From Hufsiella ginkgonis (lineage in GTDB: Bacteria > Bacteroidota > Bacteroidia > Sphingobacteriales > Sphingobacteriaceae), in assembly GCF_009834915.1 (NCBI RefSeq), contig NZ_WVHS01000001.1, positions 248,001-312,000 of the forward strand: a stretch of 64,000 nucleotides of DNA, read 5' to 3'. Positions within the stretch are counted from its first letter, which is position 1; each line of letters begins with the position of its first letter. This document shows positions 15,406 to 54,590 of this stretch, piece by piece. Under the pieces are notes generated by a model. That model was given only the letters and a program-made list of their open reading frames with translations. It had not been told where the DNA came from and ran no database searches. The position numbers were made by a program, and so were the translations under genes.

Positions 15406-15481
15406 GGGATTGATTGCGGGAAAATAGGCATTTTCAGCTGTAAGATTTGCAACAATTGCGTTAATCCCTTAGCAGCTAAGT

Positions 15482-16525: not shown

Positions 16526-16605
16526 CTATTTATTTGGTCATGTGTTTATATGAATGAGAAGCTGCCGGGTGGTGTGCCAGGCTCACAAGATAATGATAAA
16601 TCGTG

Positions 16606-16746
16606 TTAGTTCCTTCGGCAAGCTCAGGATGACACGCCAACGGGTGACTCCTTGGCAGGCTCAGGATGGCACGCTTCCGTGAATTGCGGCCAAACCGGGT
16701 TAACTCCTTATCATGTTAGCTTATCATCCGGGCTTGCCGAAGCGTA
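16606..16746. repeat. REP-like short repeats with inverted copy
   Basis: Two direct copies read TTCCTTCGGCAAGCTCAGGA and CTCCTTGGCAGGCTCAGGAT, each followed by TGACACGCC or GGCACGCTT (near 16610 and 16648). A shorter inverted copy, GGGCTTGCCGAAGC, lies near 16730. The set could fold into a stem-loop in the gap between the divergently read 5' end of terC and the 3' end of the prenyl synthase gene. It resembles dispersed extragenic palindromes. Confidence 0.5.
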
Positions 16747-16771
16747 TCACAGTAACAAATATATAATTACC

Positions 16772-17743: not shown

Positions 17744-17876
17744 CCGCTGAATTTATTCCAGTAATTTTAAGTTGCAAACATAGTTAAAAAGCGATAAATC
17801 GCGCCCAAACGCTGAACACTAACAACAAGCGGAGGTAACAGGCCGTTATCGTAGCCGGTAACGGCAAAAAACAACA

Positions 17877-17905
17877 AAGAACGGTCTTCTTAAAAGATCG
17901 TTCTT
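17877..17905. terminator. Bidirectional hairpin between prenyl synthase and trxA regions
   Basis: AAGAACGGTCTT and AAGATCGTTCTT form a 12-bp stem with one G-T-type mismatch and a short loop, in an A-rich then T-rich setting. It probably terminates transcription from trxA, which reads leftward into it. Confidence 0.55.
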
Positions 17906-18009
17906 GTTATTTAATTGACCGGCGGCTACCGGGGGTGAGGTCAATAAGCCTGGAAGCTTTATACTTTTACCTTTCAGCGACCGTCTCCCTTCGAAGCAGG
18001 ATCGATCCG

Positions 18010-27369: not shown

Positions 27370-27378
27370 AAAAAGCGT

Positions 27379-27419
27379 CATTAGAGGCTCTCCGCATTAA
27401 ATACGGAGAACCTCTAATG
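27379..27419. other. Strong stem-loop inside the cluster
   Basis: CATTAGAGG-CTCTCCG and CGGAGA-ACCTCTAATG pair almost completely around a nine-base loop. An A7 run precedes it, and no T-run follows on the plus strand. On the plus strand it therefore looks like an RNA-processing or stabilising hairpin, or a weak attenuator, rather than a classical terminator. Confidence 0.6.
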
Positions 27420-27469
27420 GTTTGCATCGGTACTTTATATCATAACACACTCCTCAAACAACCTGAATT

Positions 27470-29749: not shown

Positions 29750-29754
29750 TCTAT

Positions 29755-30678
29755 ATGAGCAACATCCCGAACACCCCGCGCCTTGGCCTGCCAAACCTGG
29801 GCCTTGGCGTGGGTTTACGCAGCAAACATTATCAGCACCTGCTTCGTGAGCCTTTGCAGGTAGACTGGTTTGAGATCATTAGTGAGAACTACATCGACGA
29901 CTATGGCTTTTCCCGCCACGTGCTCGATCATGTGCGGGCCCAGGTACCCGTAGTAATGCACGGCGTATCCCTGTCTATTGGCAGTACGGATCCTTTAAAC
30001 CTGGATTACCTGGCTAAGCTTAAACAACTGGCGGATGAAATAGAACCAGCCTGGATATCAGACCACCTTTGCTGGACGGGCGTCCTGGGCGCCAACACGC
30101 ACGACCTGCTGCCCATGCCACTCACCGTAAAAAGCCTGAAGCACGTAACCGAACGTGTGGGGCAGGTGCAGGATATGCTGAAGCGACCGCTTGTGCTCGA
30201 AAATCCGTCTACTTATATCGAGTTCAGGAATAACGAGATGGCAGAATGGGAGTTTCTTTCCCAACTGGCAATTACCACGGGTTGCGGCTTGCTGCTGGAT
30301 GTGAACAATGTTTTTGTATCGGCCCACAACCACGGCTTTGATGCGGAGCAGTATATCAGCCACCTGCCTCATCATCACATTGTGCAAATACATTTGGCGG
30401 GCCCTACTGATTATGGTGATTTGCTGGTAGACACGCATGATCAGCCCGTACCGCACCAGGTATGGCAGCTTTACCAGCTGGCGCATCGTTTAACCGGCGG
30501 GGTAAGCACGCTACTGGAATGGGACGCCCGTATACCCGACTACCCCGACCTGGTAGCGGAGGTGTTTAAGGCCAGGCTGGTTTGGAACGGCAATATGCCC
30601 GCCACGCCGGTAAAGGCGTCGTCACAACCGCCGGTGGCACACCCGCTTAACGTTCTTGCTGCCACGGTTTATGAATGA
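29755..30678 (+). CDS. DUF692 family multinuclear non-heme iron oxidase (MNIO)
   Basis: The protein has 307 residues with a TIM-barrel DUF692 pattern and intact putative iron ligands: H69 in VMHGVSLS, D103-H104 in ISDHLCW, E149 in LVLENPS, D182/N184 in [10 protein letters not shown]213 in IHLAG, D226-H228 in DTHD and E255 in LLEWD. Characterised members (MbnB, TglH, ChrH) oxidise cysteine or related residues in ribosomal peptides. Here the nearest cysteine-rich partner is the preceding ferritin-like protein. The gene overlaps the DUF2063 start by eight bases, giving strong translational coupling. It carries a short N-terminal extension before the GVGLR motif. Confidence 0.92.
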
Positions 30679-31525
30679 TGAAACACAGATACTGCAATGC
30701 TGGCTGGGTGAGATCATCTTAGCCCCCGGCAACCTCGACCAGAAGCTGGAGAGCGTTAGGGCACGCTACCAGGTACATGAACAGCAAGTAGTGGTCGGAA
30801 GCAGAGGAATACCGGCCTATTCGCGCCTGCATGTTTACACCTCCGGTTACGTAGCACGTCTTAAAGAATGCCTATCGGCCGATTTCCCGATACTCAAAAA
30901 GTTCCTGGGCGACGAGGTTTTTGACCGCTTTGTATCCGCGACGCTTATGTTTAGTCCATCGCGGTCCTATTCGTTATACGACCTGGGCTTAAACTTTCTC
31001 AGGTTCCTCGAAAATACCCGTCCCCGGCGTACCGATATGAGCCCGGAGCAACAAGTATTACTTGAGCTTCCACTGGCCATTGCCCGCGTGGAGCGCGCAC
31101 GCCAGGAGGTGCAACGGGCGCCCGGCACCGAGAAGATACCTCTCCCGCTGATCTCCGCCGCCGACCTGATGTTCCAGGATGCTGGCCTAAAGCTTGTTTT
31201 GCCCGCATCGGTGAAGGTCTTTCAGCTTAACTTCACCCTTAAAGATATGCTGGTTAAGCTTCAGAACGACCAGCCTTTTGAGCTCCCCGCCGCGCAAACG
31301 AGCTATATGGCCGTAGTCCGCGCAGACTATCGCCTCTACCTGCACGAGCTGGAAGCGTGGCAGTTCCATTTTCTTACCGCTACCGAGCATCACGTTAACT
31401 TTTACGAAGCCGCCCGCGACACCGCCGCTAAGGTGCAAAGACCTTCCGGCGAACTGCTGGCTGATCTTTGGATATGGCTATCTATCGCGGTAGCGCAGCG
31501 GTTGCTTATCGTTCAGGGATTGTAG
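30671..31525 (+). CDS. DUF2063 (HvfC/BufC-like) partner of the MNIO
   Basis: From ATG 30671 the protein has 284 residues. An upstream TTG at 30656 is less likely because 30671 gives the usual 8-base overlap with the MNIO stop. The N-terminal half shows the DUF2063 signature: [24 protein letters not shown], then [20 protein letters not shown]. The C-terminal half is variable. In known systems this protein forms a complex with the MNIO and helps peptide recognition. No metal or catalytic motif is evident. Confidence 0.85.
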
Positions 31526-33747: not shown

Positions 33748-35730
33748 ATGGTCGAAAATGAATACACTATGAGTAAATCTTGGCAGTCTTGCCGGGTAAG
33801 GAAAAATGCAAACGATGCACTTGAATATTTCCCGGATAATTACGGCAATATTATACCAGATTTCGGTGACGTAGGGTGCCATTATGACGGCAATAGAACG
33901 ATACCTTTATTTCCGGTTGTCATGGTGTTAACGGCGCTAGCGGGCGATAATACATTATTGATCCAGGACGCAATTGACGAACTTTCACTAAGGGATCCAA
34001 ATGCCGACGGAACCAGGGGAGCAATACTTCTTACCCGTGGAACTTATTCGATAGCTGGCGAAATCCAGATAACGGCAAACGGTATAGTTTTGAGAGGCGA
34101 AGGATGCGGAACCAGGCTTGTAGCGACTGGTAGCCCTAAATCCTTGATAGCTATATGCGGATCCGGATCGAGAGAACAATATAGCGGTTCATACAAAAAT
34201 GTTGTTGACGAATTTGTACCGATTGGAAGCTTAGTGGTATGCCTCGACAATACAACGGGTTTAATAGAAGGGGACCAGGTATTACTAACCGTACAGGCGA
34301 CAGACTCATGGTTGACGGCGATCGGAATGAACCAAATTCCTGCACGAATGGGCACTAAACAATGGACACCGGAAAATTACCGCCTGGATTTTGAAAGAAG
34401 CGTGGTAGCAATTCGAGGCAATGCCGTTGAACTTAACTACCCGATCGTTATGGAAATAGATCAGCGATTTGGCGGTGTAACGTTGGTAAAATGTACTTTT
34501 AACAACAGGGTGAACTTTTCGGGCATTGAGTCGCTGCAACTCGAAGCGGTTACTGAACCACTACTTGCTAACATATCCCCTTGCGTCGCCATCAGCATAG
34601 ACAAAGCGGAGTATTGTTGGATTACCAGTATTACGGCGCTAAATTTTTCCGGTAGTGCGGTAAAAGCCGATCACCTGGCCAAAAACATCACGGTTAGGGA
34701 TGCCGTCTGCATCAATGCTGAAACGACAAGCGATACGGGCCGGCGCTATTCGTTCCAGAATAACGGGCAATTAAACCTTTTTATGAATCTTGTTGCTCTC
34801 CGCGGTCGGCATGACTATGTAACAGGAGCAAAGACCCTCGGTCCCAATGTATTTTTTAACTGTACATCGATACTCGCAAACAGTGATATCGGCCCTCATG
34901 AAAGATGGTCAGCCGGCACTTTATATGACAACGTGACAACAGATTATAAGATTAATGTGCAAAACCGAGGTAATTGGGGAACCGGGCAGGGCTGGACGGG
35001 TGTTACCCAAGTCCTTTGGAATTGTAAAGGACTGAGTGCGAGCGTTGAGTCACCGCCTGTCTCCGGGAAAAATTATGCGATAGGTTTCTTCGGCCAACGG
35101 TCATTCGGTCGTAATTTTCAGGAAAAATTAATTGGTGATTACAATGCGCTGCCGCATGGCGAATGGGAGGGACTTAATGTGCCGGGGTTAGATCCGTGGT
35201 CATTATACCTGGCTCAATCAGTTCCAGGAGGTAACCAACCAGCACCTCCCGGTAAGAAAAACGCTTATGCCGTGGTTTCGCGTATTATGATCAATTTGGC
35301 GACCACAGCGGCATCGGATATGGACTTGATCAACACGATCGCAGTGTACCTGGTGGCAATTGCATGCAAAGCTTATATTGAGGGCGGTCAGGTATTCGGG
35401 CCGGGGAATAGCTTGCTTAACGCTTATTTAGCGGGCGGTCACCCAGCGGACGCCCCTATGGATGATTATGGTATGGGTGAAATCATTACGGAAGTATGGC
35501 ACGAAAGTTATACTAACCATCATGCCGGCTGGAAAGCCTGGCAACAATTATGCTCACAAGAAATAAATGACAGCGATAATGGCGGTCTCACCCTTATCAG
35601 GTTAATTGGGGTGATCTTCGATTCACTGGAAATTTCGGCCCAAAACGCGCAGATAATAAATTCCGGCATTTACACGGATCTTTTAGCCAGGGTAATGAAT
35701 GACGGGGTTATTGATCAGGGGCAATCCTGA
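33748..35730 (+). CDS. Right-handed beta-helix (pectate-lyase-like) protein
   Basis: The protein has 660 residues without a clear signal peptide. Residues 90-400 carry the repeating short beta-strand pattern of pectin-lyase-fold proteins: RGTYSIAGEIQITANGIVLRGEG, then INYPIVMEID-like coils, GVTLVKCTFNN and AKNITVRDAV. A region near residues 335-420 ends in GPHERWSAGTLYDNV, a segment found in several beta-helix carbohydrate-active proteins. The C-terminal 150 residues are of another kind and mostly helical. Substrate is unknown. The start could also be ATG 33769. The 3' end overlaps the convergent glycosyltransferase by 23 bases. Confidence 0.65.
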   Translation: MVENEYTMSKSWQSCRVRKNANDALEYFPDNYGNIIPDFGDVGCHYDGNRTIPLFPVVMVLTALAGDNTLLIQDAIDELSLRDPNADGTRGAILLTRGTYSIAGEIQITANGIVLRGEGCGTRLVATGSPKSLIAICGSGSREQYSGSYKNVVDEFVPIGSLVVCLDNTTGLIEGDQVLLTVQATDSWLTAIGMNQIPARMGTKQWTPENYRLDFERSVVAIRGNAVELNYPIVMEIDQRFGGVTLVKCTFNNRVNFSGIESLQLEAVTEPLLANISPCVAISIDKAEYCWITSITALNFSGSAVKADHLAKNITVRDAVCINAETTSDTGRRYSFQNNGQLNLFMNLVALRGRHDYVTGAKTLGPNVFFNCTSILANSDIGPHERWSAGTLYDNVTTDYKINVQNRGNWGTGQGWTGVTQVLWNCKGLSASVESPPVSGKNYAIGFFGQRSFGRNFQEKLIGDYNALPHGEWEGLNVPGLDPWSLYLAQSVPGGNQPAPPGKKNAYAVVSRIMINLATTAASDMDLINTIAVYLVAIACKAYIEGGQVFGPGNSLLNAYLAGGHPADAPMDDYGMGEIITEVWHESYTNHHAGWKAWQQLCSQEINDSDNGGLTLIRLIGVIFDSLEISAQNAQIINSGIYTDLLARVMNDGVIDQGQS

Positions 35731-37033
35731 CCAATTTAAACGGGAGATTGCGTGCGTGTACGGCAAGCGACGAGTGCTTGATATCCAATTTATTTTCTTG
35801 AATAAGCCGAAAATCAATTGTCCATCGCCACATTAAAAAATCTCTTAGTTTGCTGCCGATCATGGTGTCGGGGTGTGTGGTCAGAGAGTTAGGTCTCTTA
35901 AACCTGATGTAGAAAAAATCGTCCGCGTTTCCCGATCTAAGGTAAAAATAGGACCTCAGGAGAAATTGACTGTCGTAACCGAATTTCCTGTCGGTCGAAA
36001 ACCCGCCTGTTCTCAAATAAGATTCCCTGGTAATTAATGCAGTTGGATGATAAAGTGAATGAAAATATCTTTTCTCTAATGATTGGGACGCATCGAACGG
36101 GAACCGTATCGCCTCAACACATTTATCAAACTGGTTAATTCTTAACTCATGGCAGCCGATCATATCAAGTTTCCTGGAATGCAGCTCTTCCATTTGTCTG
36201 CTGAACCGACCGTCGAGTGAGATATCATCAGAATCCTGGAAAAACACGAACCTCGCTGTAGCTGTGCTGATGGACTCGTGTCGTGCGGGATAGGGTCCTG
36301 TGTTCAACGGCGTGTTCTTAAAAACATTCAGCGTGCAACAAAGATCCGGCACCGCTTGATTGAAGGGTTTGTAACTGCGGTCGTCAAAACACAAATTGAT
36401 TGAAGCTGGTACGACCTTATTACCCTCAAAAGACGAAAGACAACGTTTCAGCAAATTAAGTGGGCCTTTATGGGGAATCACCACCAGGCTATCGCACAGA
36501 TGCCGTTCGGTATCGGTGCCCGAATCGGCTTTTGTTAAAGGCTTACCGATCTGCAAAACAGAAATCCCGCCTGGCCGGCTTCCATTCACTTTAGCCGTGA
36601 CGACCCTGTAAAGCAAGTTTATGAAACTATTTCCGATACTAAAAGCAAATGATTTTACTCCCGCACTTTCATGGAGAATAAAAGAACCGATCCTGCCATC
36701 CTGTCTGGGGCCGAATAGCGGCGGAGCGAGGTAAGGGATAATGATCGTGAGCGGGCTGCCGGTTTCGCTTTTTAATTCATCTGCCAGAGAGGTGGTTTCA
36801 AAATTATTCGATTGAGAGATGAACGCCAGTTTATACACGCTATGCGCTTTTACAACCTTATGGAGATATTTTCTTACGCCTCTGTAATGCAGCGTGGTCT
36901 CAGTGTGCCGGCAGTTTTCGCCGAGCAGCACGATGGTGTTTAGCGGGGTATCCAAGTCCCGGGCGTTAAAATGGGCGCGGGAGGTGAGGATAACCAACAA
37001 TCGAGGATCGTCTTTCGCCACCTTCATAAACAC
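35708..37033 (-). CDS. GT2 family glycosyltransferase with extra N-terminal domain
   Basis: The protein has 441 residues. The C-terminal part (about 185-400) is a GT-A fold family 2 domain: VVIPHKGPLNLLKRCLSS, the metal-binding FFQDSDD, and the later ITRESYLRTGGFS. The N-terminal 180 residues (VILTSRAHFNARDLD) do not match a family I know. It is the last gene of the minus-strand operon that also encodes the C39 exporter. It overlaps the upstream unknown gene by ten bases. Glycosylation of the exported peptide or of a surface sugar are both possible. Confidence 0.75.
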   Translation of the reverse strand: MFMKVAKDDPRLLVILTSRAHFNARDLDTPLNTIVLLGENCRHTETTLHYRGVRKYLHKVVKAHSVYKLAFISQSNNFETTSLADELKSETGSPLTIIIPYLAPPLFGPRQDGRIGSFILHESAGVKSFAFSIGNSFINLLYRVVTAKVNGSRPGGISVLQIGKPLTKADSGTDTERHLCDSLVVIPHKGPLNLLKRCLSSFEGNKVVPASINLCFDDRSYKPFNQAVPDLCCTLNVFKNTPLNTGPYPARHESISTATARFVFFQDSDDISLDGRFSRQMEELHSRKLDMIGCHELRINQFDKCVEAIRFPFDASQSLEKRYFHSLYHPTALITRESYLRTGGFSTDRKFGYDSQFLLRSYFYLRSGNADDFFYIRFKRPNSLTTHPDTMIGSKLRDFLMWRWTIDFRLIQENKLDIKHSSLAVHARNLPFKLVRIAPDQ

Positions 37034-38968: not shown

Positions 38969-40249
38969 TTATTCTATAGCCCTGATCACGTTTCTCATCA
39001 ATCTTTTCAACACGCTGGCTTCTTGTGTGATGATCTCAGCATCTGCTATCATGCCGGTTTTCAGGTTTACAGCCTGCCGGAGATGGTTATCTTCAAGGCT
39101 GAATTTCACCCTGGCGGTAAAAATGCTGTCTCTGAAAGGCACTTCGTTGATATAGGAGATATGGCCATGAATAATGCCATATTCTTCATAAGGAAACCCC
39201 TTTAACTTAATCAGAACCTCCTGTCCTTTCCTTACTTTTCCCATACTGAACTGTGGAATCCTCAATATCCCGAAGAATGCCGAATTGCCCGGAGTTATAT
39301 AAAAGAGCGATTGTCCTTCGTTAACCACCTGGTTTTCCTGTACTACCTCCGAAAATTCCAGTCGACCGGCCTGGGTGGCGACAACCATAAACCTGTTCTT
39401 CCATTTTTCGATTTCGCTAACCTCCCTGTTCACTGCCTGGAAAAAAGTCGATTTAACGAGGCTCACCTCCTCCTCGAGCTCCATGATCTCCTTTTCTTTA
39501 GTATATCGATCCACCCGGTTAGCTGATAACGCTGCCCTTGTTTGACGGACGGGGTACTGGGTTGCTAAGAATTTAGCTTCTTCCCGCTTAAACTCCATAC
39601 GGGCTTCTACTTTTTCGTCCAGAAGCTTCTTATGCATCTCAAACTCCTGTACTGCGAGGTCGTATTCTTTTTCCTGCAGCGCCAATTGAGCAACCAGGAA
39701 CTTTTGATGATTGTCTATGCTTTGAATGTCTTTTGCAAGGAAAGCCTTCTTTTTTTGACGAAAGCCTTCGTTAACGGCCGACTTATAATCAAGGAATGAC
39801 TGATAAAACTCCTGGTAGGAGGCTTGTAATTCGCCCAGTTCAAAATTTCCATGATCATCCAGGAAGGTGGTCGATAAGTTTTCCCCGTTTACCAACTGTT
39901 TCTGAAGCGAGGTCAGCTGTGTATAGAGCGTTAATATCTTTTCGGGGTTGCCATCGCTTTCCAGGAAGGCAAGTGGCTGGTTACGCTTTACAGCTGCATT
40001 GTCTGCCACCAACAGCCTTACCAGCTTCCCGGTTACCTTTGCAACAACGGGCTTAGGAGCATCTTCCGCATTTATCTTCAAATCTGATCGTACCACGTCA
40101 GGGTACCTGATCATTGCCGACAAACCTACGAACATAATGATCATCAGGAACAGGATCGTCATGCTCCACTGCACCAGCCACGGTGGTTGAGCTGCAATGA
40201 TCTCCTGCATCTCACTCTGGTATTCTGCCTGTTCTTCCGTTACTTCCAT
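38969..40249 (-). CDS. HlyD family periplasmic adaptor of bacteriocin exporter
   Basis: The protein has 426 residues. A short cytoplasmic head is followed by one membrane helix at about 27-48 (TILFLMIIMFVGLSAMI). A biotinyl-lipoyl-like half-domain follows (KPVVAKVTGKLVRLLV), then a long coiled coil (about 110-275, rich in Lys/Glu/Gln) and the beta-barrel C-terminus (GQEVLIKLKGFPYEEYG). It links the inner-membrane ABC exporter to an outer-membrane channel. The gene is immediately adjacent to the C39 ABC transporter gene (its start codon at 40249 follows directly after the transporter stop at 40250). Confidence 0.93.
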   Translation of the reverse strand: MEVTEEQAEYQSEMQEIIAAQPPWLVQWSMTILFLMIIMFVGLSAMIRYPDVVRSDLKINAEDAPKPVVAKVTGKLVRLLVADNAAVKRNQPLAFLESDGNPEKILTLYTQLTSLQKQLVNGENLSTTFLDDHGNFELGELQASYQEFYQSFLDYKSAVNEGFRQKKKAFLAKDIQSIDNHQKFLVAQLALQEKEYDLAVQEFEMHKKLLDEKVEARMEFKREEAKFLATQYPVRQTRAALSANRVDRYTKEKEIMELEEEVSLVKSTFFQAVNREVSEIEKWKNRFMVVATQAGRLEFSEVVQENQVVNEGQSLFYITPGNSAFFGILRIPQFSMGKVRKGQEVLIKLKGFPYEEYGIIHGHISYINEVPFRDSIFTARVKFSLEDNHLRQAVNLKTGMIADAEIITQEASVLKRLMRNVIRAIE

Positions 40250-42430
40250 TTAAGTTCCCAGTTCAAGTTGGTTTTGCACTAAGCGATAATAGGCGCCTTT
40301 TGTTGCGGTCAGCACATCATGCGAACCCTGTTCAACCACCCTGCCGTTGTCCATAACAATAATATTATCCGCGTTTCTCACGGTACTAAGGCGGTGTGCT
40401 ACTATGATCACAGTCCTCCCGGCAAAAAATTCCTGGAGGTTATTAATGATCATTTTTTCATTATTGGCATCCAGGGAATTGGTGGCCTCATCAAAAAAGA
40501 TGTAATGAGGGTTTTTATAAACCGCCCTGGCGATAAATAAACGCTGTTTTTGCCCTTGGCTAACGCCGTTCCCCCCGGCACCGATCATGGTATTAAACCC
40601 AAGTGGCAGGGCGTCGATAAATGCGTTGATATTTGCCACCTTCGCTGCATTCTCCAACCGCTCCGTCTCCGGATAGTCGTCGCCCAGTCCGATATTGCCT
40701 GCAATGGTATCTGAGAAAATAAACCCTTCCTGCATCACCATGCCGCATTGACTTCGCCATTCTTTAACGCTCAACTGATCTAACCTGACATCACCAATCC
40801 TGATCTCTCCTTTCTCAGCTTTATAAAAACGCAGAAGCAGTTTTAGCAGCGTAGTTTTCCCGCTACCGCTCATCCCTACAATTGCCGTTGTTTTCCCTTC
40901 AGGTATCCGGATACTAATATCGGCTAGTACCGGATCATTTCCAGCTCCGGGATAACGAAAAGTAAGTTGTTCGATCGTGATCGTTTTGTTCTTAGGCAGC
41001 GCATGGGTAAAGGGCTTGTTGTCCGGTTCTTCATTTTCCATTTCATGTACTTCGTTCAACCGCTCAAGACTGATCTTCGCATCCTGGTAGCCTTGTATCA
41101 GGCCAAGCAACTGTTCGATTGGAGCGTTTAGCATAGCGGTCATATATTGAAGAGCCATCATTCCGCCCAATGTGAGGTAGCCTTCCACTACCGCTTTTGC
41201 GCTTAGGTAGGTAATCAGGATGTTTTTGCCCTGGTTAATAAAGCTTGCGCCCGCCTGCTGGTATTGATTAAGTGCAAGCCCCTGTAGTCTAAACTTAAAC
41301 ACATTTGCCTGTATGTTCTCCCACTTCCATCGTTTTTGCTGTTCACAAGTATGTAATTTTATTTCGTTTATACCGGTGATCAGCTCCACCACAGTGCTTT
41401 GGTTATTTGCTGCATTTCCAAATTGCCGTTGATCAAGCTCCCGCCGTCTTTGCATGAATAAGTATATCCAAAAGGAATACATCCCGCTGCTGATCAGAAA
41501 TATCACGAGGATAGCAGAGTTATAATAACTAATGATGACGGCGTAAACTATCATATTGACCAGTGAGAAAAGCGTATTTAATGTCGTTCCTGTTAAAAAG
41601 CTCTCTACGCGCCGATGGTCGTTCATACGTTCCATGATATCCCCCGTTCTCCTCGAATCGAAAAAACTCATCGGAAGCCGCATCATCTTAGCGAGGTAAT
41701 CGGTAAGAATCGCCACATTTATGCGGGTAGACATGTGCAGCAGTATCCAAGACCTGACGAATCCTACGCTCAACGATCCCACGAAAAGCATTACCTGTGC
41801 GATAAGTATCAGGTTGATAAGGCTTAGATTCTGCGTACTGATGCCGATGTCGACAATTGCCTGCGTTAAGAACGGGCCGATCAGTTGTATGACACTGCCA
41901 ACGCAAAGCCCTAAAAAGAGCTGGAGGATCAGCCTGCTGTAGGCTCGCCGGTAGTTAAAAAGGATCGACCAATTTAGACCCTTACTTTTATCGTCATCTT
42001 CTTCGTAAAACCGGGGGGTAGGCGACAGAAACAGCACCACGCCCTCGCGTGAGCGACCGTTGTTCAGCCAGTGATCTCTCAGTTCCCTTTCGGAATATGT
42101 CAGCAGTCCTTTTTCCGGATCCGACACATAATATTTGTCCTTCTTTATCTTATAGAGTACCACGAAATGGCGGCTGTGCCAATGCAAAATGCAGGGCAGC
42201 TGCGACTTTGTCAATTCGTCGGGTTCGATCTTTACACCCAGTGAACGCAGTCCGATCTTTTCCGCAGCTTCGCTGATCCCCAGCAATGAAACACCTACCT
42301 TGCTGATGTTGCAAAGGTCGCGTAACCGCTGTATGGCATACGAGCGCCCATAATGTTTTGCGATGATACGCAGACAGGTAGGACCGCAATCCATCCTGTC
42401 ATGCTGTTTATAAAAAGGGAACGATTTCAA
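40250..42430 (-). CDS. C39-peptidase ABC exporter (PCAT) for double-glycine peptides
   Basis: The protein has 726 residues. The N-terminal C39 domain has the catalytic cysteine C15 in RMDCGPTCLR, a histidine in SRHFVVLYKI and an aspartate in VSDPEKGL, so it looks active and should cut after GG. Six membrane helices follow (about 165-430). The ATPase domain has Walker A GMSGSGKTTL, signature GVSQGQKQRL (SQGQ variant of SGGQ) and Walker B FFDEATNSLD. It exports peptides with double-glycine leaders such as the one at 45396-45620. It is the second gene in the operon. Confidence 0.93.
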   Translation of the reverse strand: MKSFPFYKQHDRMDCGPTCLRIIAKHYGRSYAIQRLRDLCNISKVGVSLLGISEAAEKIGLRSLGVKIEPDELTKSQLPCILHWHSRHFVVLYKIKKDKYYVSDPEKGLLTYSERELRDHWLNNGRSREGVVLFLSPTPRFYEEDDDKSKGLNWSILFNYRRAYSRLILQLFLGLCVGSVIQLIGPFLTQAIVDIGISTQNLSLINLILIAQVMLFVGSLSVGFVRSWILLHMSTRINVAILTDYLAKMMRLPMSFFDSRRTGDIMERMNDHRRVESFLTGTTLNTLFSLVNMIVYAVIISYYNSAILVIFLISSGMYSFWIYLFMQRRRELDQRQFGNAANNQSTVVELITGINEIKLHTCEQQKRWKWENIQANVFKFRLQGLALNQYQQAGASFINQGKNILITYLSAKAVVEGYLTLGGMMALQYMTAMLNAPIEQLLGLIQGYQDAKISLERLNEVHEMENEEPDNKPFTHALPKNKTITIEQLTFRYPGAGNDPVLADISIRIPEGKTTAIVGMSGSGKTTLLKLLLRFYKAEKGEIRIGDVRLDQLSVKEWRSQCGMVMQEGFIFSDTIAGNIGLGDDYPETERLENAAKVANINAFIDALPLGFNTMIGAGGNGVSQGQKQRLFIARAVYKNPHYIFFDEATNSLDANNEKMIINNLQEFFAGRTVIIVAHRLSTVRNADNIIVMDNGRVVEQGSHDVLTATKGAYYRLVQNQLELGT

Positions 42431-44235: not shown

Positions 44236-45273
44236 ATGAAACTACGCATTCTTTTGACCTCAGTTGTTCTTGCCTGGAGTGTTGCGGCGATCGCACAAAC
44301 GCCGAACGCTTATGATTTGAATGTAAAGCTTGCGGAACAATATTATCGAAGCGGGGACTTTCTAAAAGCGGCGCAATCCTATTCTCAAGCTTTTTTTTCG
44401 AATAAAAACCTGGGCCTGATAACTGATCGATATAAAGCCGCATGTTGCTGGGCGATGACAAATGAAGTGGACTCATCCTTTTACCAATTGGAAAAAATTG
44501 TTAAAACGGGATTTTACACTAATTACCATGAGATAGTAACCGAACCGGATTTGATCGTGCTCCATAATGATTCAAGGTGGAAAAATATTATTATGACAAT
44601 AAAAGCCCTAAAAGACAAGGAAAGAGAAAATTTGAATCTGCCAGTGGTCGCCGCATTGGACAGCGTATATGTCGATGACCAGTTTCCCCGGCGTGTATTG
44701 ATGAGTATCGAAAAAAGCGGCGGTCTGAGATCCGCCCGGTGGGAAGCCAAGGCGAAAGAGATTATGCGTCAAGATTCGTTAAATCTGCCACGAATTACGA
44801 AAATCCTGGATCAGTACGGCTGGTTGGGTAAAGAAGAGATCGGTATTGAGGGCAACCGTACGTTATTCCTTGTCATACAACATGCGGATATTAAAACCCA
44901 GGAAAAATACCTGCCTATGTTGCGTGCCGCTGTCATCAGCGGGAAAGCGAGTGCTTCCAGCCTGGCATTATTGGAGGACAGGGTCTCGCTGAGACAGATC
45001 AATAAACAGATCTATGGCAGCCAGATCGGCCAGAATTATTTCACAGGCGCTTATTATGTACTCCCCATGGACGATCCGGAAAATGTAAATAAGCGGCGTG
45101 CAGCCGTTGGATTGGAGCCTTTGGAAGGTTACGTTAAACAGTGGGGGATTGCCTGGAGCATTGAACATTATTACAAAGACCTGGAAATGAATAAAGTTCC
45201 ATCATCGCCGGGAATCCGAAGACTAACTCCAATCAAAGATAAGGTAACAAGGCCGTTTCCCGCGGTAAATTAG
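44236..45273 (+). CDS. Exported DUF6624-family protein in peptide locus
   Basis: The protein has 345 residues with a signal peptide (MKLRILLTSVVLAWSVAAIAQ). Residues 25-130 look like TPR-type helices (EQYYRSGDFLKAAQSYSQAFF). Residues 165-300 carry the DUF6624 pattern QYGWLGKEEIG then NRTLFLVIQHAD and KYLPMLRAAV. Function is unknown. Because it is the first gene on the maturation side and exported, it may be a receptor or immunity-type partner for the peptide, but that is inference. Confidence 0.7.
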   Translation: MKLRILLTSVVLAWSVAAIAQTPNAYDLNVKLAEQYYRSGDFLKAAQSYSQAFFSNKNLGLITDRYKAACCWAMTNEVDSSFYQLEKIVKTGFYTNYHEIVTEPDLIVLHNDSRWKNIIMTIKALKDKERENLNLPVVAALDSVYVDDQFPRRVLMSIEKSGGLRSARWEAKAKEIMRQDSLNLPRITKILDQYGWLGKEEIGIEGNRTLFLVIQHADIKTQEKYLPMLRAAVISGKASASSLALLEDRVSLRQINKQIYGSQIGQNYFTGAYYVLPMDDPENVNKRRAAVGLEPLEGYVKQWGIAWSIEHYYKDLEMNKVPSSPGIRRLTPIKDKVTRPFPAVN

Positions 45274-45395: not shown

Positions 45396-45620
45396 ATGAA
45401 AAAACTACAGAAACTTAAATTCGTTGAGCTCGGAAAACAACAGATGACACATGTCATTGGCGGAGGTTATGGTGAAGAAACTTATCGTGATATTCCCACG
45501 GAAACTCCGACCAACATTTTGGAACACACTTTCGTTTATGGCTCCATAAATGGAATCACGGACCGTATTCCAGATACTGAGACCGGTCCTGACCACGTTA
45601 GCGATTTACATTACGCCTAG
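45396..45620 (+). CDS. Double-glycine-leader precursor peptide (grasp-with-spasm type)
   Basis: This 74-residue peptide starts MKKLQKLKFVELGKQQMTHV and has a GGG at residues 22-24, the pattern of Bacteroidota GG-leader natural-product precursors. The predicted core (about 24-74) is rich in Thr, Glu and Asp, with two related elements: YRDIPTETPT (30-39) and DRIPDTETGP (56-65). Such residues could be donor and acceptor in ester or amide macrocycles made by ATP-grasp ligases. A terminator-like hairpin follows and then the maturase genes. The C39 exporter in the divergent operon would cut after the GG. Confidence 0.8.
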   Translation: MKKLQKLKFVELGKQQMTHVIGGGYGEETYRDIPTETPTNILEHTFVYGSINGITDRIPDTETGPDHVSDLHYA

Positions 45621-45644: not shown

Positions 45645-45687
45645 AAATCATTTAGCGTATTCCTGAAGGCCACGCTAAATGATTTTT
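45645..45687 (+). terminator. Attenuator-like terminator between precursor and maturases
   Basis: AAATCATTTAGCGT (45645-45658) and ACGCTAAATGATTT (45672-45685) form a perfect 14-bp stem with a 13-base loop and end in five T residues. It would limit read-through into the ATP-grasp gene, so the peptide would be made in excess over the enzymes. Confidence 0.75.
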
Positions 45688-45707: not shown

Positions 45708-46685
45708 TTGGGCATCTTAATTATTTCCCACAATGAAGATCAATCGACCTGCAATGTTATCGGTTGGATCAGGCATTATAATAAAAGTTATCATAGGATT
45801 AACTGCCAGCCTTCCGTAGAAATCCATTCGATGGAGATTGCCGATCAATGCCGCATGCTTCTACGGGTAGGTGATCAGGAAATTGACATTAATGAGATCG
45901 AGGCGTTTTGGCATAGGAACGGACACATTACTATTGACTTCCCGGCAACGCTTATTTCGGATGATTTCCCCTATAAAAAGGACCTGTTTTCTCATTTCCG
46001 AAATGAAAAGCGAAAAACAAGCGAATATCTGCATCACCAGTTCAGGAAGAAAAAAAGCCTTGGAAACTACTTCCAGGCAGATTTAAATAAGCTTATCGCG
46101 CTGGAGCAGGCCAGGGCGCTTTCGATTCCAGTTCCACCTACCCTGGTCACCACTTCAAAGAAGACGCTGGTGAGCTTCCTGACGAAATATGGTAAGGCCA
46201 TCTGCAAACCGATATCCGACGCATTGATGTTAACCGATATCGACGAAGGTACAGTGGCCTACTATACTAATGTGCTTACAGACGAAAACGTAAATAGTCT
46301 GGGAGACCATTTTCCCCTTTCACTGTTCCAGCAGCGTATTATAAAAAAGTATGAATTGCGAATATTTTACTTGGATGGCGAGTTCTACAGCATGGCAATT
46401 TTTTCGCAATCTGACGAACAAACGATGGTAGACTTTCGAAAGTACAATCACCGAAAACCAAACAGGACCGTTCCTTATTCATTGCCCCCCGATATACAGG
46501 ATAAATTGAGGCAGTTGATGAAACAATTGGACCTTAATATCGGGTCTATCGACATGGCTGTCACTCCGGAAAATGAATATGTATTTTTTGAGGTTAACCC
46601 GGTGGGACAATTCGGAATGACCTCTTTCCCCTGTAACTATTACCTTGAAAAGAAAATCGCTCAATATTTAGCGCAAACCATATGA
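45708..46685 (+). CDS. gwsG: Grasp-with-spasm ATP-grasp peptide maturase
   Basis: The protein has 325 residues from a TTG start. No ATG occurs before residue 42 and the frame begins with the family-like ILIISHNED, so TTG is accepted. FWHRNGHITID lies near residue 63. The ATP-grasp core shows KAICKPISDALM, SLFQQRIIKKYELRIFYL and the metal-binding end YVFFEVNPVGQFG. Such enzymes join Asp/Glu side chains to Thr, Ser or Lys in peptides. The stop overlaps the next gene by four bases (ATGA). Confidence 0.85.
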   Translation: MGILIISHNEDQSTCNVIGWIRHYNKSYHRINCQPSVEIHSMEIADQCRMLLRVGDQEIDINEIEAFWHRNGHITIDFPATLISDDFPYKKDLFSHFRNEKRKTSEYLHHQFRKKKSLGNYFQADLNKLIALEQARALSIPVPPTLVTTSKKTLVSFLTKYGKAICKPISDALMLTDIDEGTVAYYTNVLTDENVNSLGDHFPLSLFQQRIIKKYELRIFYLDGEFYSMAIFSQSDEQTMVDFRKYNHRKPNRTVPYSLPPDIQDKLRQLMKQLDLNIGSIDMAVTPENEYVFFEVNPVGQFGMTSFPCNYYLEKKIAQYLAQTI

Positions 46686-46897
46686 CGAAAATTAAGGAGC
46701 TTGATAAAATAAAACAGTATATCGAGACTGAATTGCTGCCCGATCTGCCCGCCGGATTTCAAAACCTTGAATACCTGCCATTCACACCCGAAACGGTTAT
46801 CAGCAGAAAGGCAGTGCCTGTAGATAGTTATATCACCACGAAATATTTTATCAACAGGTATCATAAACCGATCTCCAAATGCTTAACCGATCTGTAG
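46682..46897 (+). CDS. Small conserved-position protein in grasp-with-spasm operon
   Basis: A 71-residue protein, mildly charged and without signal peptide or membrane segment. It overlaps the ATP-grasp gene by four bases and the SPASM gene by 19 bases, which supports real translation. Content such as KQYIETELLPDLPAGFQNLEY and a C-terminal KCLTDL gives no family match. It could be a peptide-binding helper for the maturases. Confidence 0.6.
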   Translation: MTKIKELDKIKQYIETELLPDLPAGFQNLEYLPFTPETVISRKAVPVDSYITTKYFINRYHKPISKCLTDL

Positions 46898-47916
46898 ATC
46901 GCAATCATTTTAGATTGTTTGCAAACTGCGTTCCTGTGAAGGGCGCTTCGCGATCGCTGATTTGCGATATACAACGAGCAGTATATCATTTTATTCCAAA
47001 CGATCTTTTTGATATCCTGACGACACAGGCAAACATGTCAGTAGACAGCCTGCTCGCCTTTTATGAGGATGAGAATAACAGTGACACGATCAAAGAATAC
47101 TTCGATTTTCTTTATACGGAGGAGTATATATTTTTTTGCACCGCTGATGAGCTTGCGCTTTTCCCTGAGCTCAACCTCGATTGGGACCATCCTTCTGCGA
47201 TTACCAATGCCATCATCGATATAAACCAAAGCTCTGAACACGATTTTCCCCAACTGTTCAACCAACTGGAGGAATTGGGCTGCAGGGCGTTGCAACTACG
47301 TTTTTTCTCCGACATATCCCTGCAGAATTTATCTGAAATAATACGCCTGCTAGATCGTAGCGTAATAACGGCCATTGAAATTCTACTGCCCGACCCCGGA
47401 AATCTGCGGGATGAAGAAGTAATTTCCCTAATTACGCTAAACCTGAGAATTTCGGTTATCTGTTTCCATTCGTCAGCGTTGACCCGGGAATTAAGAACAT
47501 TTTCTGATCTGCCTACCACCATTAGCTTTTCTACTAACGCCATCACAGATGAATCACATTGCGGGGTTATATCAAGCAAGTACTTTGCGTTGGGTATCGA
47601 GTTATTCACCGAAGGTCAAAAATACAATACCTGCCTGAACAGGAAGCTTTCCGTAGACAAATCCGGTTTTATCAAAAATTGCCCCTCTATGAAGGCAACA
47701 TTCGGCAATGTTAAGACTACCCAACTGAAAACCGCCATTGCTGCTGCCGGATTTAAAGATCCCTGGGGTATTTCTAAAGACCAGATATATATCTGTAGGG
47801 ACTGTGAATTCAGATATATTTGTACCGATTGCAGGGCCTATACGGTTAATAACGGCATATACAATAAACCTCTTAAATGTAAATATGACCCGTACTCCAT
47901 CGCTTGGAGTGAGTAA
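46879..47916 (+). CDS. gwsS: Grasp-with-spasm SPASM-domain protein
   Basis: The protein has 345 residues. The C-terminal SPASM domain is clear: C252-x10-G-x4-C268, then C306-x2-C309-x5-C315-x2-C318 and C334, enough for two auxiliary iron-sulfur clusters. The N-terminal ~240 residues lack a CxxxCxxC motif, so no radical-SAM cluster can be bound in the usual way; their fold may still be barrel-like. Family knowledge pairs such proteins with the ATP-grasp maturase to modify GG-leader peptides. The reaction of the SPASM partner is unknown. Confidence 0.82.
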   Translation: MLNRSVDRNHFRLFANCVPVKGASRSLICDIQRAVYHFIPNDLFDILTTQANMSVDSLLAFYEDENNSDTIKEYFDFLYTEEYIFFCTADELALFPELNLDWDHPSAITNAIIDINQSSEHDFPQLFNQLEELGCRALQLRFFSDISLQNLSEIIRLLDRSVITAIEILLPDPGNLRDEEVISLITLNLRISVICFHSSALTRELRTFSDLPTTISFSTNAITDESHCGVISSKYFALGIELFTEGQKYNTCLNRKLSVDKSGFIKNCPSMKATFGNVKTTQLKTAIAAAGFKDPWGISKDQIYICRDCEFRYICTDCRAYTVNNGIYNKPLKCKYDPYSIAWSE

Positions 47917-47956: not shown

Positions 47957-48190
47957 GTGATTTGGCAGGGACACTCGCCCTCGATCGAGGTGATCGCCAG
48001 GCTGGCAAAAGCCTTTGAGGTATCGGTGGATTATTTACTGGGCGAAGGGCTGAACGCCTCCTATGATAAAGAGATGATCAAGCGGCTGGACGAGCTGGAA
48101 AGCCTGCCCGAAGAGGAAAAGAGGCGCATATTCGAGTATATAGACCTCATTATACGGGATTATAAGACAAAGAAGAACTACGGTAAATAA
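47957..48190 (+). pseudogene. Truncated XRE regulator, left remnant of the repeat unit
   Basis: Codons from SPSIEVIARLAKAFEVSVDY to the end correspond to residues 42-112 of the intact XRE gene at 54945, with changes such as LESLPEEEKRR for LETLPDDEKKR. The N-terminal helix-turn-helix helices are missing, replaced by unrelated sequence near 47960. It marks the left edge of the Rhs array as an older, partly diverged copy. It is unlikely to be functional. Confidence 0.8.
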
Positions 48191-48218
48191 CAAAGGCCGG
48201 CGGATCCGCCGGCCTTTG
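48191..48218. terminator. Perfect palindromic terminator
   Basis: CAAAGGCCGGCGG and its complement around ATCC form a strong symmetric stem, with TT and ATTTT on the plus side. It sits between the convergent XRE remnant and the first immunity-like gene and probably serves both. Confidence 0.75.
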
Positions 48219-48722
48219 TTATTTTCTTATATACCAATTTCCTTTATAAGCTTTGAATAAGCCTATATCCCCAGGAGGTGAACTCGATGATTTTCGAAGC
48301 AAGATAGGCAGATCAGACCTGTCAGGGTTGATGTATACATTTCCTTCATTATCGACCTGTATCAAGCATAAATTATACAGCACATACTTTTCGAGTATTT
48401 TTTCTATTTCTGCTCTGCTCAAGTAGTCTTTTCCACAACTTTTAAGAACTAACTTGTTGCTGATTTCAACAATTGCTTTACTGTCATCATTAAGCTCGAC
48501 AACATAAGGAGAACACTTTCCCCTATAAATATTTACAAAGTATATCGAAGTGTTATCCTGATTGCCAAGACTTCTGCGGTATACTGAAGCATTCTTTAAC
48601 CCGCTAAAGTCTGTATGGTCATATTTTGCGATGACACTGTCCAGGTCATTGCTTTGACTATGACAAGACTGAAGCATAATCATGAAAATCCCTGTTAGCC
48701 ATATTTTTATTGCTTTTTTCAT
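48219..48722 (-). CDS. Lipoprotein, candidate immunity protein for Rhs tip 1
   Basis: The protein has 167 residues with a lipoprotein signal peptide ([10 protein letters not shown], cysteine 20). The mature part is acidic and polar with no recognised domain. The gene overlaps the end of the Rhs tip by four bases (ATGA), the usual position of an immunity gene. Function as immunity is inferred from position only. An exported lipoprotein would match a toxin acting outside the cytoplasm. Confidence 0.6.
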
Positions 48723-50544: not shown

Positions 50545-51411
50545 TCACTTCATCGGGTGCCGTGCCTGGATGATGCTGTGCAAAGCTTGCACCTGGTCCT
50601 GCCGGTACTTTTCAGTCGCGCTGATCTTTCGGTGACCGGCAAACACCTGTACCGCCCGCAGTTCCTTTTCTGCTTTAAGAAGGTTTGTGATCACGCTGGC
50701 CCGGATCGTCCGGCAGCTCACTTTGCGGGGATGGAACAGGCTGCCGTAATGGCTCGTTACATGTTTGATTATGTCGGCGGCGAGCAGGTGGCCACCCCGC
50801 AATCCGACCAGGAAGCGATCACTTTGCCTGCCATCAAGAAGCTGTTTCCGGATCACCTGCAGGTAGTTCAGCATCAGCAGTACTTGGGCGGCCCTCAGCG
50901 ACAGCGTTCGCCCGTTAGTATTCGCCTGCGCCCGGACCCGGACCGTTCCCGCTTCCAGATCGATATCTTCTGTACGAAGATCTTCCAGTTCGCGGGGCTG
51001 CAAAGCCTGGTGAATGAGCAGGCCCATAAGTACTTTATTTCGTGTGGCCAACAGGGTATACCGTTCTTCTTTGTGAAGTAATTGCCCGAGCTCGTCCGGG
51101 GTTAACAGGTCCTGCAGCTGGATATCTGTGCTGATGGGATCGCGCAAACGTACAGATACCGCCGGGTTGTCCGTGCGTTTTCCGGCCAGGGTCAGGTACT
51201 GGTAATACGCTTTCAGGCTGCACAGGATCCGGCGAACCGTGCCGGCATTGGGGTAACGTTTGCGAAGCCGGCCGATATAGGTCATCACCTCCTTAAAGCC
51301 GGCCTGGTCTGCACCAGGGCAATTACTTCGGTAGATCTCAATTTCACGGGCGTACAGCCGGGCCGTCGGTGCTGCGTAGCGCTCCGACAGGTAATCATGT
51401 AGTTCATTCAT
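50545..51411 (-). CDS. Tyrosine recombinase 2 (copy 1)
   Basis: The protein has 288 residues with an N-terminal SAM-like core-binding domain (1-95) and a catalytic domain. The first arginine is in LQPRELEDL and the C-terminal HxxxxxxY region is FAGHRKISATEKY. The box II motif is CRTIRAS instead of HxLRH, so one conserved histidine is absent. Activity may be weak or depend on the partner recombinase gene just upstream (frameshifted). Starts three bases from that gene's stop. Confidence 0.85.
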   Translation of the reverse strand: MNELHDYLSERYAAPTARLYAREIEIYRSNCPGADQAGFKEVMTYIGRLRKRYPNAGTVRRILCSLKAYYQYLTLAGKRTDNPAVSVRLRDPISTDIQLQDLLTPDELGQLLHKEERYTLLATRNKVLMGLLIHQALQPRELEDLRTEDIDLEAGTVRVRAQANTNGRTLSLRAAQVLLMLNYLQVIRKQLLDGRQSDRFLVGLRGGHLLAADIIKHVTSHYGSLFHPRKVSCRTIRASVITNLLKAEKELRAVQVFAGHRKISATEKYRQDQVQALHSIIQARHPMK

Positions 51412-51413
51412 CG

Positions 51414-52261
51414 TTAAAGGGTTAAGAGTTGCTGCCGGCTTATCCCGGCATAGATCTGCGTGGTTTCCAAACAGGAGTGGCCCAGGAACTCCCGGAGCAG
51501 TTCCATGCTCACGCCCGAGGCCAGCAGGTGCGTAGCGATCGAGTGACGCAGGTGGTGCAGCGTAGTGCCTGGCGGCAAACCCGCTCTTTCGAGCAGTTCC
51601 GAAAGAACGCCCTGGTAACCCTGGCCGCTCATTCTTCCGCCGGTTTTGTTCAGCATAAAGGCACGTTCCTGGTGATCTGCACGCTCCTGCATATAGTAGT
51701 TCTCCAGGTCGGCGGCCACCTGGGCAGGCATCGGCACCACGCGCCGTTTGGCTCCCTTACCCGAACGGACGTACAGCAATCGCTGTGCAAAGTGTACGTC
51801 TCTTGCATTCAGTGCTTCGCCCTCGTTTCTGCGCAGGCCACAGCTGTAGAACAGGTGCAGTACCGCACGTTCCTGCATCGTCCGGCAGGCGGCAAAGAGC
51901 TTTTCTATAGCATCGGGAGCAAGCGGTTTCCGGCTACTTCTTTCGGGCCTGGGGAAGCGGATCGCGCTGATCGGGTTATGATCGATCCCGCCCGTTTCTT
52001 CCAGCCAGGCAAGAGCACCCGCAGGGCGTAAACGTGGTGGTGGATATACGTTTCGCTTAGCCCGCCTGAACGGTGTTTGCCTGGCCGCTCGCCCAGGTGA
52101 TGATGATAAAGATGAACGTGGTGAGGCTCGGTCAACTGGATATCAGTAAGTGCGCAGTGTTCCAGGAAGTCGGAGGCAATGGCCGGCAACAGCGACACGC
52201 TGCCTTTGCCATAACCGGCGCTGGTTAGGTAAGCCTTAAAGTCAGTGATCAGCGGCATCAT
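51414..52261 (-). pseudogene. Tyrosine recombinase 1, frameshifted (copy 1)
   Basis: The N-terminal frame starts MMPLITDFKAYLTSAGYG at 52261 and contains the core-binding domain. After HVYALRVLL the frame must shift to continue as AWLEETGGIDHNP, KPLAPDAIEKLF and then the catalytic domain (51878-51414): CGLRRNEGEAL, HHLRHSIATHLL, LGHSCLE and TTQIYAG, all catalytic residues present. The same shift is in copy 2, so it predates duplication or is used as programmed frameshifting, though no slippery site is seen. Its start overlaps the primase-like gene by 20 bases. Confidence 0.75.
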
Positions 52262-54590
52262 AGGTGATAGGTGTATGACGGTTTGTAAAGGCTCCCTTGC
52301 ACATATTCCTGGAACTTGGAACGCTAGCGACAAAAACGGCCTTTACATGCTCCATTATGCGTTTTTTATCAGTTCTGGTGTTCCGTGGTGTTCCAGCTTT
52401 CAGCGCGTCCAGTTGGTTCTCCAGGTGCGCCCGGATCTTTTCCCGGATCGCCAGGTAGTTGTCCCAGTACACGATCCGGTATTTAAAGCCCCGGTTGGCG
52501 TAACCGCCGGACTGGCGCAGGTATTCTAAGGCAGTCAGTTCATTCACATAGCGGAACAGCTGCGTCTTGCTCAGGGCCAACGCCTGCCGCACTTCCAGCA
52601 AACTGAACTCCGCTTTTTGGTGGTTACCCGGATACGTTTTTTCAAGGTAACCTTTCAATCGCTCAAAGAAGGCGCGTAGCGATCCGTCCAGCTCGTCCAC
52701 TTTCAGCACGATGCTTTCAAACAAGATCAGCTCGCCATTGCTCTGCAGCTCGCGGAAGGCCAGGCCCGCTTCCTCGGGCAGCCCGTCCATGTCTTCCAGG
52801 CACAGCAGGCGGTTGATCAGGAAGTTTTTCGGGTAGTTGTACAGCGCCTTATCGCTCACGCGGGTCAACCGGGTCACTTTTTCGGGCGGCATGCAGTCGG
52901 AGATCTGCCGGAGCAAACGCGTCTTGCCGCTGCCGGAGCTGCCCTGGATCAGCGCGTGAAGGGGCTCAGCCATCTTATAGCTGGCGGCGATCAGGAACAG
53001 CAGCAACCGGCTGTTTTCTTCGCCTACGATACCCGTTTTGCCAAGCAGCTCGCTTAACTCCGTGATCAGCGACGGGCTTTTCGCCAAGGCTTCGGCCTGC
53101 TCGCGTTCCAGCGCGGTTAAAGGCGTCAGTACTTCTTCGCCCGGATCCGTTTCACGATTTTTAAGGAGTTCCTGTTCGCGGTAGCTTTCTAATAGATCGG
53201 TCAGCTTGTGCAGGTCGGTTTCCATCTGGTAAGTATCTATGTGGAGTTTTTCGGCCGCTTCCCTTGCCGTCTTTTCCACCTGTTTATCTTCGTACAGGTC
53301 GAGCTTTACGCGGCTCTTGCCGCTTTCGGTTTCGATGGCCAAAGTAACTTTCAGGCTGTCGGGCAGTTTGGAGATGCCGCCCAGGATATAGTAGCGGGCG
53401 GTATCCGTCCGGAAGCTTAGCTTCCAGGGGTTTTCCACGTTCAGGGCGGGGGCTTCTTTGGGCGGTTCGGGAACTGGTTGGAAAGGGGCAGGTTTTTCTT
53501 TTTCAGCTGATAGATTTTCAGTTGAAAGAAAAAGATCCGTGCGCTCGGCCAGCAGCTGGCTGAACAGGGCTTGATCCTGGTGAGCCAGTGCCGTTTCGTT
53601 CACGTCTTTACACGGCAGGGCAAGGGTCGAGATTTTAAGGGCGGGCAGTTCCCCGTGCAGTTCTGCGGCGTATTTCCGGGCGGCAGCTTGTCCGGCATCA
53701 TCGCTGTCGAAGGCGAAGATGAGTTCTTGCAGATCGGCAAGTGCTTTAATGGCCGCCCGGTGTTCTTCGTTCAGCCCGTTGGTACCGTAGGCGGCAAGGA
53801 CGCTATAGGTTGCCGTAACCGGGTCAAGCTGCAATAGCGTGGCGGCATCGATGACGCTTTCGGTCAGGATCAGCTTTTTCGTCGCCGGATCCGGGTAGCC
53901 CGGGTAGAGCCCGCTCCGCTCTTTTAAGTAAAAGTGTTTAGCGTGGTCGTTATTCACGGTACTGCGGAAGTATAGGCCGCTGATCTGGTGCTGATTATTT
54001 CGCAGGGCGAACACCAGGCAGCATTTACCGAAGGGCTGGTAAGCTTTTTCGCCGGTACGGCTATTGGTCAGGTTCTTATCGATCAGCAGGCCGTATTTCA
54101 AACAGCTTTGCACCAGGTGTTCTTCCTTGCGCGTCCCGTGGTGGAACTGCCCGGCGTTGTAGCCGATCTCCGTTTTTCGGAAGTCCAGACCGCGCCCGGC
54201 GATATAATCCTGGGCAGGTTTTGAGTTATGCACCGCGTTTTTGAAGTAGGTGAACTGCCGGGTCAGTACCGCCGTTCTGGTCAGCTCGGCGGCAGGGTGT
54301 ACCTGGACTGCGCTGTCTCCGCCGATCAGGGTTTTGCATTTCTCCAAAGCCTCGTGTTTGGTCAGCTTTTCCAGGCGCTGAACCAGCTCGATCACGTCCA
54401 TACTATGGCCGTGCGTGGGGCAGTTCCCGCTGAAACAGTATGCCGTATGCGTCTTGTAATAAAGCTGCATGCTCGGCGTTTTGTCATCATGGAACGGGCA
54501 GTGCAGCCGGTTCTGCTTGTCGGCTTTCAGGCCGTAATGGCGCAGCACTTCGGCAAGGGTAAGCTGCTGCTTGATCTCGGCGATGGTCAT
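52242..54590 (-). CDS. CHC2 zinc-finger/Toprim/ATPase primase-helicase-like protein (copy 1)
   Basis: The protein has 782 residues. The CHC2 zinc finger is C31-x2-H34 ... C52-x4-C57 (CPFHDDKTPS, YCFSGNCPTHG). The Toprim part has ILTESVIDAATLL and FAFDSDDAGQAAARKYA. The ATPase domain has K556 in GSSGSGKTRLLRQ and LCLEDMDGLPEEAG as Walker B region. The C-terminal 120 residues suggest a winged helix. Such primase-like proteins serve replication of small mobile elements. The stop codon region and start overlap both neighbours. Confidence 0.85.
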   Translation of the reverse strand: MTIAEIKQQLTLAEVLRHYGLKADKQNRLHCPFHDDKTPSMQLYYKTHTAYCFSGNCPTHGHSMDVIELVQRLEKLTKHEALEKCKTLIGGDSAVQVHPAAELTRTAVLTRQFTYFKNAVHNSKPAQDYIAGRGLDFRKTEIGYNAGQFHHGTRKEEHLVQSCLKYGLLIDKNLTNSRTGEKAYQPFGKCCLVFALRNNQHQISGLYFRSTVNNDHAKHFYLKERSGLYPGYPDPATKKLILTESVIDAATLLQLDPVTATYSVLAAYGTNGLNEEHRAAIKALADLQELIFAFDSDDAGQAAARKYAAELHGELPALKISTLALPCKDVNETALAHQDQALFSQLLAERTDLFLSTENLSAEKEKPAPFQPVPEPPKEAPALNVENPWKLSFRTDTARYYILGGISKLPDSLKVTLAIETESGKSRVKLDLYEDKQVEKTAREAAEKLHIDTYQMETDLHKLTDLLESYREQELLKNRETDPGEEVLTPLTALEREQAEALAKSPSLITELSELLGKTGIVGEENSRLLLFLIAASYKMAEPLHALIQGSSGSGKTRLLRQISDCMPPEKVTRLTRVSDKALYNYPKNFLINRLLCLEDMDGLPEEAGLAFRELQSNGELILFESIVLKVDELDGSLRAFFERLKGYLEKTYPGNHQKAEFSLLEVRQALALSKTQLFRYVNELTALEYLRQSGGYANRGFKYRIVYWDNYLAIREKIRAHLENQLDALKAGTPRNTRTDKKRIMEHVKAVFVASVPSSRNMCKGAFTNRHTPITYDAADH

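Follow-up and report, generated by a model that had tools for sequence, protein, structure and literature searches.

The locus lies in a 64,000-nucleotide stretch of Hufsiella ginkgonis DNA, referred to here as the window, and is built around a 74-residue open reading frame with an ATG start (MKKLQKLKFVELGKQQMTHVIGGGYGEETYRDIPTETPTNILEHTFVYGSINGITDRIPDTETGPDHVSDLHYA). The gap between its end and the ATP-grasp ligase gene gwsG is 87 bp; a small LPL-type frame and gwsS follow on the same strand (Table 1). The translated frame comprises a leader (residues 1–24, with a GG site at 22–24) and a core spanning about residues 24–74. The leader scored 22.8 bits against TIGR04149, the curated cut-off being 25 bits. 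Graspetide cores are defined by Ser, Thr or Lys donors and Asp or Glu acceptors, and the core here offers the conserved T35, T39 and T45 together with D56, D60, E62, D66 and D70; a ligase of the graspetide-synthetase type adjoins the gene. Both are features of a graspetide precursor. The frame and its two TET-containing elements were found exactly as the preliminary description had given them.

Table 1. Features of the graspetide locus and its surroundings in the window.
Feature	Coordinates	Strand	Evidence and remarks
GT2-like glycosyltransferase	35708..37033	-	Weak Glycos_transf_2 match; possible tailoring gene, role uncertain
HlyD-type adaptor of exporter	38969..40249	-	HlyD families
Peptidase C39 ABC exporter	40250..42430	-	Peptidase_C39, ABC_membrane, ABC_tran; likely leader protease and exporter
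Exported TPR-DUF6624 protein, system-associated	44236..45273	+	PF20329, E 1e-21; signal-like N terminus; beside the system in L170 and L171
Graspetide precursor gene	45396..45620	+	TIGR04149, E 6.4e-5; orthologues in L170 and L171
First element, YRDIPTETPT	45483..45512	+	Predicted Thr donors T35, T39; E36 not conserved; alignment and half-by-half test
Second element, DRIPDTETGP	45561..45590	+	Part of conserved acid (acceptor) block: D56, D60, E62, then D66, D70; alignment and half-by-half test
Hairpin between precursor and gwsG	45645..45686	+	14 bp, U-rich tail; z -5.4; possible partial terminator
gwsG, graspetide synthetase (ATP-grasp)	45708..46685	+	TTG start; TIGR04192, 336 bits (cut-off 230)
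Small LPL-type protein	46682..46897	+	71 aa; overlaps both neighbours; 48% and 47% identical to same-place frames in L170 and L171
gwsS	46879..47916	+	Predicted RRE (residues 9–97), barrel without SAM-cluster cysteines, SPASM; TIGR04193, 341 bits (cut-off 175)

GwsG and GwsS both scored above the curated cut-offs of their families and are encoded side by side, and the LPL protein is encoded immediately 5' of the SPASM gene, as in Makarova's branch 5 of the 2022 survey (PMC8939145). The locus belongs to the known Bacteroidota grasp-with-spasm system of that branch. It probably also corresponds to graspetide group 14 of the RODEO classification (PMC13097080), for which that paper describes a SPASM protein alongside every member and, in many cases, an NHLM-type exporter as well. 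The SPASM protein and the peptidase-ABC exporter found together at the window locus agree with this assignment. GwsG matched graspetide synthetases of solved structure (MdnC, AMdnB and CdnC), and its residues D242 and R244 were invariant across 50 homologues. GwsS is encoded beside GwsG in 101 of 102 systems. The literature searched yielded no characterised product of the large grasp-with-spasm group, which is apparently uncharacterised.

Several features surround this core set of genes. Of 20 sampled grasp-with-spasm loci, 15 had a relative of the C39 exporter nearby, as against none of 20 control windows; at the two closest relatives, L170 and L171, no exporter occurred within the 18–19 kb read. 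The gap between precursor and gwsG carries a hairpin in the window and different hairpins in L170 (z -3.7) and L171 (z -5.9). The window hairpin did not appear in the output of a simple terminator scan; it would fit an attenuator that leaves precursor transcripts in excess. No Rfam family was matched in the operon, and no similar DNA was found on plasmids. Downstream of gwsS, a short frame (47957–48190) matched HTH_3 in part (E 0.0036), may represent a truncated regulator, and is followed by a terminator-like 18-bp stem at 48185–48224. About 3 kb from gwsS, a possible mobile element (50545–54590) comprises integrase-like frames at 50545–51411 and 51414–52333 and a large primase-like frame at 52242–54590, all recognised by eye. 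Cas1- and Cas9-like frames, also recognised by eye, lie at 3053–8346 of L171, about 3.4 kb upstream of its precursor. The window contains a second RiPP-like cluster at 26254–31525, with an MNIO enzyme (29755–30678; PF05114, E 8e-105), a DUF2063 partner (30656–31525) and a 759-residue frame (27470–29749) that bears a Cys-rich stretch.

Of the 102 systems, 25 had a homologue of the DUF6624 protein encoded within 2.5 kb on the same strand; none of 20 control windows had one. A simple rule detected a signal-like N terminus in 25 of 30 distinct members, and a fold search returned matches for the TPR half only. The domain has been named for graspetide groups 18, 20, 23 and 42 (PMC13097080), and the family may be identical with 'cluster 23', an exported family in PMC8939145. 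As an exported protein, it is unlikely to form rings in the cytoplasm. In L171, the region directly 3' of the DUF6624 gene (15275–17994) encodes a cytidylyltransferase-like protein, followed in the list by a GT4 glycosyltransferase whose N terminus gave a weak LanC-like match.

GwsS was analysed through an AlphaFold2 model (mean pLDDT 92.7). A sequence search against solved structures returned nothing useful; the fold comparison alone was informative. In the model, residues 9–97 adopt a PqqD-like fold that superimposes on the RREs of TbiB1 (Z 9.2, rmsd 3.0, 81 residues), TruD (Z 8.0, rmsd 2.9, 87 residues) and MccB (Z 7.1, rmsd 2.9, 78 residues), so that GwsS is predicted to be an RRE-containing protein; such a fold match suggests leader binding but is no proof of it. 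Most of the remaining model resembles the radical-SAM/SPASM enzymes TigE (Z 12.2, rmsd 7.1, 298 residues) and PqqE (Z 11.5, rmsd 5.6, 184 residues). The SPASM cysteines C306, C309, C315 and C334 were invariant in a 60-member alignment.

Relatives of the precursor were sought in 399, 400 and 395 genomes of the family, order and class, respectively (overlapping draws); a separate search of genome contigs added one distant locus only. The closest ligases were those of L170 (53% identical) and L171 (50%; the same locus as L089), and the precursors beside them are MKKLRKLQFIEIIQNAINYMGGIVTNPNPYATVKPTIFVGETFHEGGASTPDNFSDTETVNDYELDQG and MKKLRKLSFTELTKSEMKQVTGGFTDPRPYSTTSSTTIVGITFVDGKENKQDHYTDDETTNDYQMDYA. 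These orthologues come from two other genera and are placed alike within the system, which speaks strongly against a chance or decayed reading frame next to a ligase that acts on a different peptide. That reading draws on the leader score slightly under the TIGR04149 cut-off; the genome, however, contains no further copy of the precursor, and we regard it as highly improbable. The TIGR04149-like leader, the nearby ligase and the orthologues make the graspetide class proposed in the preliminary description very probable, and we assign the frame with high confidence as the precursor of a grasp-with-spasm-type graspetide, a real and well-placed gene in a known group. The same description had also proposed two similar small rings, one within each TET element. 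Inside the window core the elements are indeed alike, since shuffled cores aligned as well in only 0.7–1.4% of cases when gaps were cheap (84% with standard gap costs), and two TETs occurred in 0.26% of shuffled cores; the motif was picked post hoc, so the true significance lies below these figures. Repeat-bearing graspetides are also known, e.g., plesiocin and the TxxKxxDD peptide Gra-4 (PMC9576775). The comparison with the relatives pointed in the other direction. The cores of L170 and L171 contained no internal repeat (shuffle fractions 0.55–0.92), so that a conserved multi-core precursor was rejected, and the double TET was unique to the window among 135 candidate grasp-with-spasm cores. 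The third base differed in every matched P, T, E and T codon of the two elements, so a recent DNA duplication is unlikely. Neither E36 nor R31–P34, including the first IP, was kept in the two relatives, and the same was true of D32. In a half-by-half test, the first element alone did not outperform shuffles when aligned with the relatives (p 0.76 and 0.99), whereas the second half did (p 0.012 and 0.017). No acid follows a first-element Thr at a known ring spacing except for the adjacent E36, and a Thr bonded to a neighbouring Glu would give a ring smaller than any graspetide ring known to us. Two such rings are therefore improbable.

The identity of GwsS as an active enzyme was weighed in the same way. 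The 2022 survey calls the SPASM protein of grasp-with-spasm systems a radical SAM enzyme (PMC8939145), and such an enzyme could add a second crosslink to the peptide. The C-terminal part of the model does fold like PqqE, CteB and SuiB, and the SPASM cysteines are kept. The CX3CX2C motif, which in radical SAM/SPASM enzymes holds the SAM-binding cluster, was nevertheless absent from all 100 distinct homologues, none of which has a three-Cys cluster in residues 90–170 either. Pfam SPASM was matched by 41 of 60 members, and the radical SAM family was not among the 25 families listed. The window core, moreover, has no Cys for a thioether. We consider a second crosslink by GwsS a very slim prospect; without CX3CX2C, SAM cleavage is not expected. 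The most economical reading is a leader-binding partner on a radical-SAM scaffold that has lost the SAM cluster, rather than a second modifying enzyme, which the name given by NCBIfam, 'SPASM domain peptide maturase', may already take into account. A further alternative keeps the graspetide as proposed and adds a sugar, with nearby glycosyltransferases decorating the peptide. Glycosyltransferase genes do lie near the systems of the window, L170 and L171, and the GT2-like protein of the window shares 32% identity across 365 residues with one encoded close to the L170 system. On the other hand, only about 2 of 20 other sampled loci had such a gene nearby, so that glycosyltransferases do not belong to the system in general. 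In the window, these genes lie on the opposite strand and could be part of a polysaccharide locus next to the system. Glycosylation of the product is rather unlikely.

The positions conserved between the window precursor and its orthologues define the ring layout that we favour. In the alignment of this subgroup, which consists of three precursors only, the invariant core positions were Y30, T35, T39, T45, F46, G49, D56, D60, E62, T63, D66 and D70 (window numbering). The second element accordingly retains the pattern D60-x-E62-T63-x2-D66, and the first retains its Thr positions only. Across the 135 candidate cores, which were chosen by a loose pattern and include some false ones, acids lay C-terminal of Thr/Ser (offset 0.087, as against 0.000 with an sd of 0.015 for shuffles). 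The order in the window core itself was neutral (-0.006), owing to the additional N-terminal acids E26, E27, D32 and E36. Donors usually precede acids in the graspetides known so far, and on this basis T35, T39 and T45 are the predicted donors and D56, D60, E62, D66 and D70 the predicted acceptors. As the conserved Thr block precedes the acid block, the links most likely span the two elements. The TET elements would be ring partners, not copies of one ring; the preliminary description named the correct class but probably not the correct layout.

The LPL protein carries an LP-x-GF motif and ends in KPIS. Its family was described in PMC8939145 and proposed to be a PqqD-like chaperone; the same work noted that the LPL motif resembles a leader motif missing from branch 5 precursors, so that the protein might act on the ATP-grasp enzyme. 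This second role is the more attractive since GwsS appears to have its own RRE. A loose P-hydrophobic pattern, chosen after the sequences had been seen, occurred in 75 of 86 LPL frames and in 5 of 120 leaders, and the LP-hydrophobic motif of the LPL protein is similar to the leader motif of microviridins. We tentatively suggest that leader recognition could be split in trans, with the RRE of GwsS holding the leader and the LPL protein filling the leader site of the ligase as an activating mimic, although we give this less than even odds. If this is true, graspetide synthesis throughout the group would depend on a partner protein built on a radical-SAM scaffold put to new use.

Taken as a whole, the following pathway is the one we favour, with moderate confidence. 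GwsG would use ATP to activate the Asp and Glu side chains of the C-terminal acid block and join them to Thr hydroxyls, mainly those of the N-terminal block. About two to four macrolactones spanning the two elements would result. T63 and D66 could form a small extra ring; their i to i+3 spacing equals that of the smallest microviridin ring. During these steps the RRE of GwsS would probably hold the leader, GwsS serving as a partner protein rather than a radical SAM enzyme. Cleavage after GG and export of the product would then probably fall to the C39 peptidase-ABC exporter.

The locus provides a compact, Cys-free core with a clear donor and acceptor prediction, which makes both its ring connectivity and the part played by the SPASM partner testable. 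Should GwsS prove to be a leader-binding pseudo-enzyme, the extra radical-SAM crosslink expected in the literature would have to be dropped for the entire group. We consider the SAM-less RRE-SPASM partner a more interesting point than the ring layout.

Compared with the Bacteroidota grasp-with-spasm graspetides defined by TIGR04192 and TIGR04193, the window shares the GG-leader precursor, GwsG, the LPL-type frame before the SPASM gene and a C39 exporter nearby. Its core is Cys-free and dissimilar to most others, and even the closest ligases are just 50–53% identical. The SPASM protein is taken here as SAM-less, contrary to the survey (PMC8939145). In its predicted architecture of RRE, barrel and SPASM domain, GwsS resembles PqqD–PqqE, CteB and SuiB, but it has no CX3CX2C. 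With the microviridin and chryseoviridin systems, the window shares the ligase fold and the conserved D-x-R of MdnC, AMdnB and CdnC. Their products place Thr donors before Asp/Glu acceptors, as predicted here. The leader motif to which these ligases bind is part of the precursor, whereas the window precursor lacks the P-hydrophobic motif and its system has a SPASM partner. The rosaritide system (MirA/MirB/MirC; PMC13097080) likewise pairs its graspetide synthetase with a partner protein, the two co-occurring strictly. MirC is SurA/PpiC-like, in contrast to the RRE-SPASM protein GwsS, and the dependence on a partner that has been demonstrated for MirC (PMC13097080) is what we propose for GwsS.
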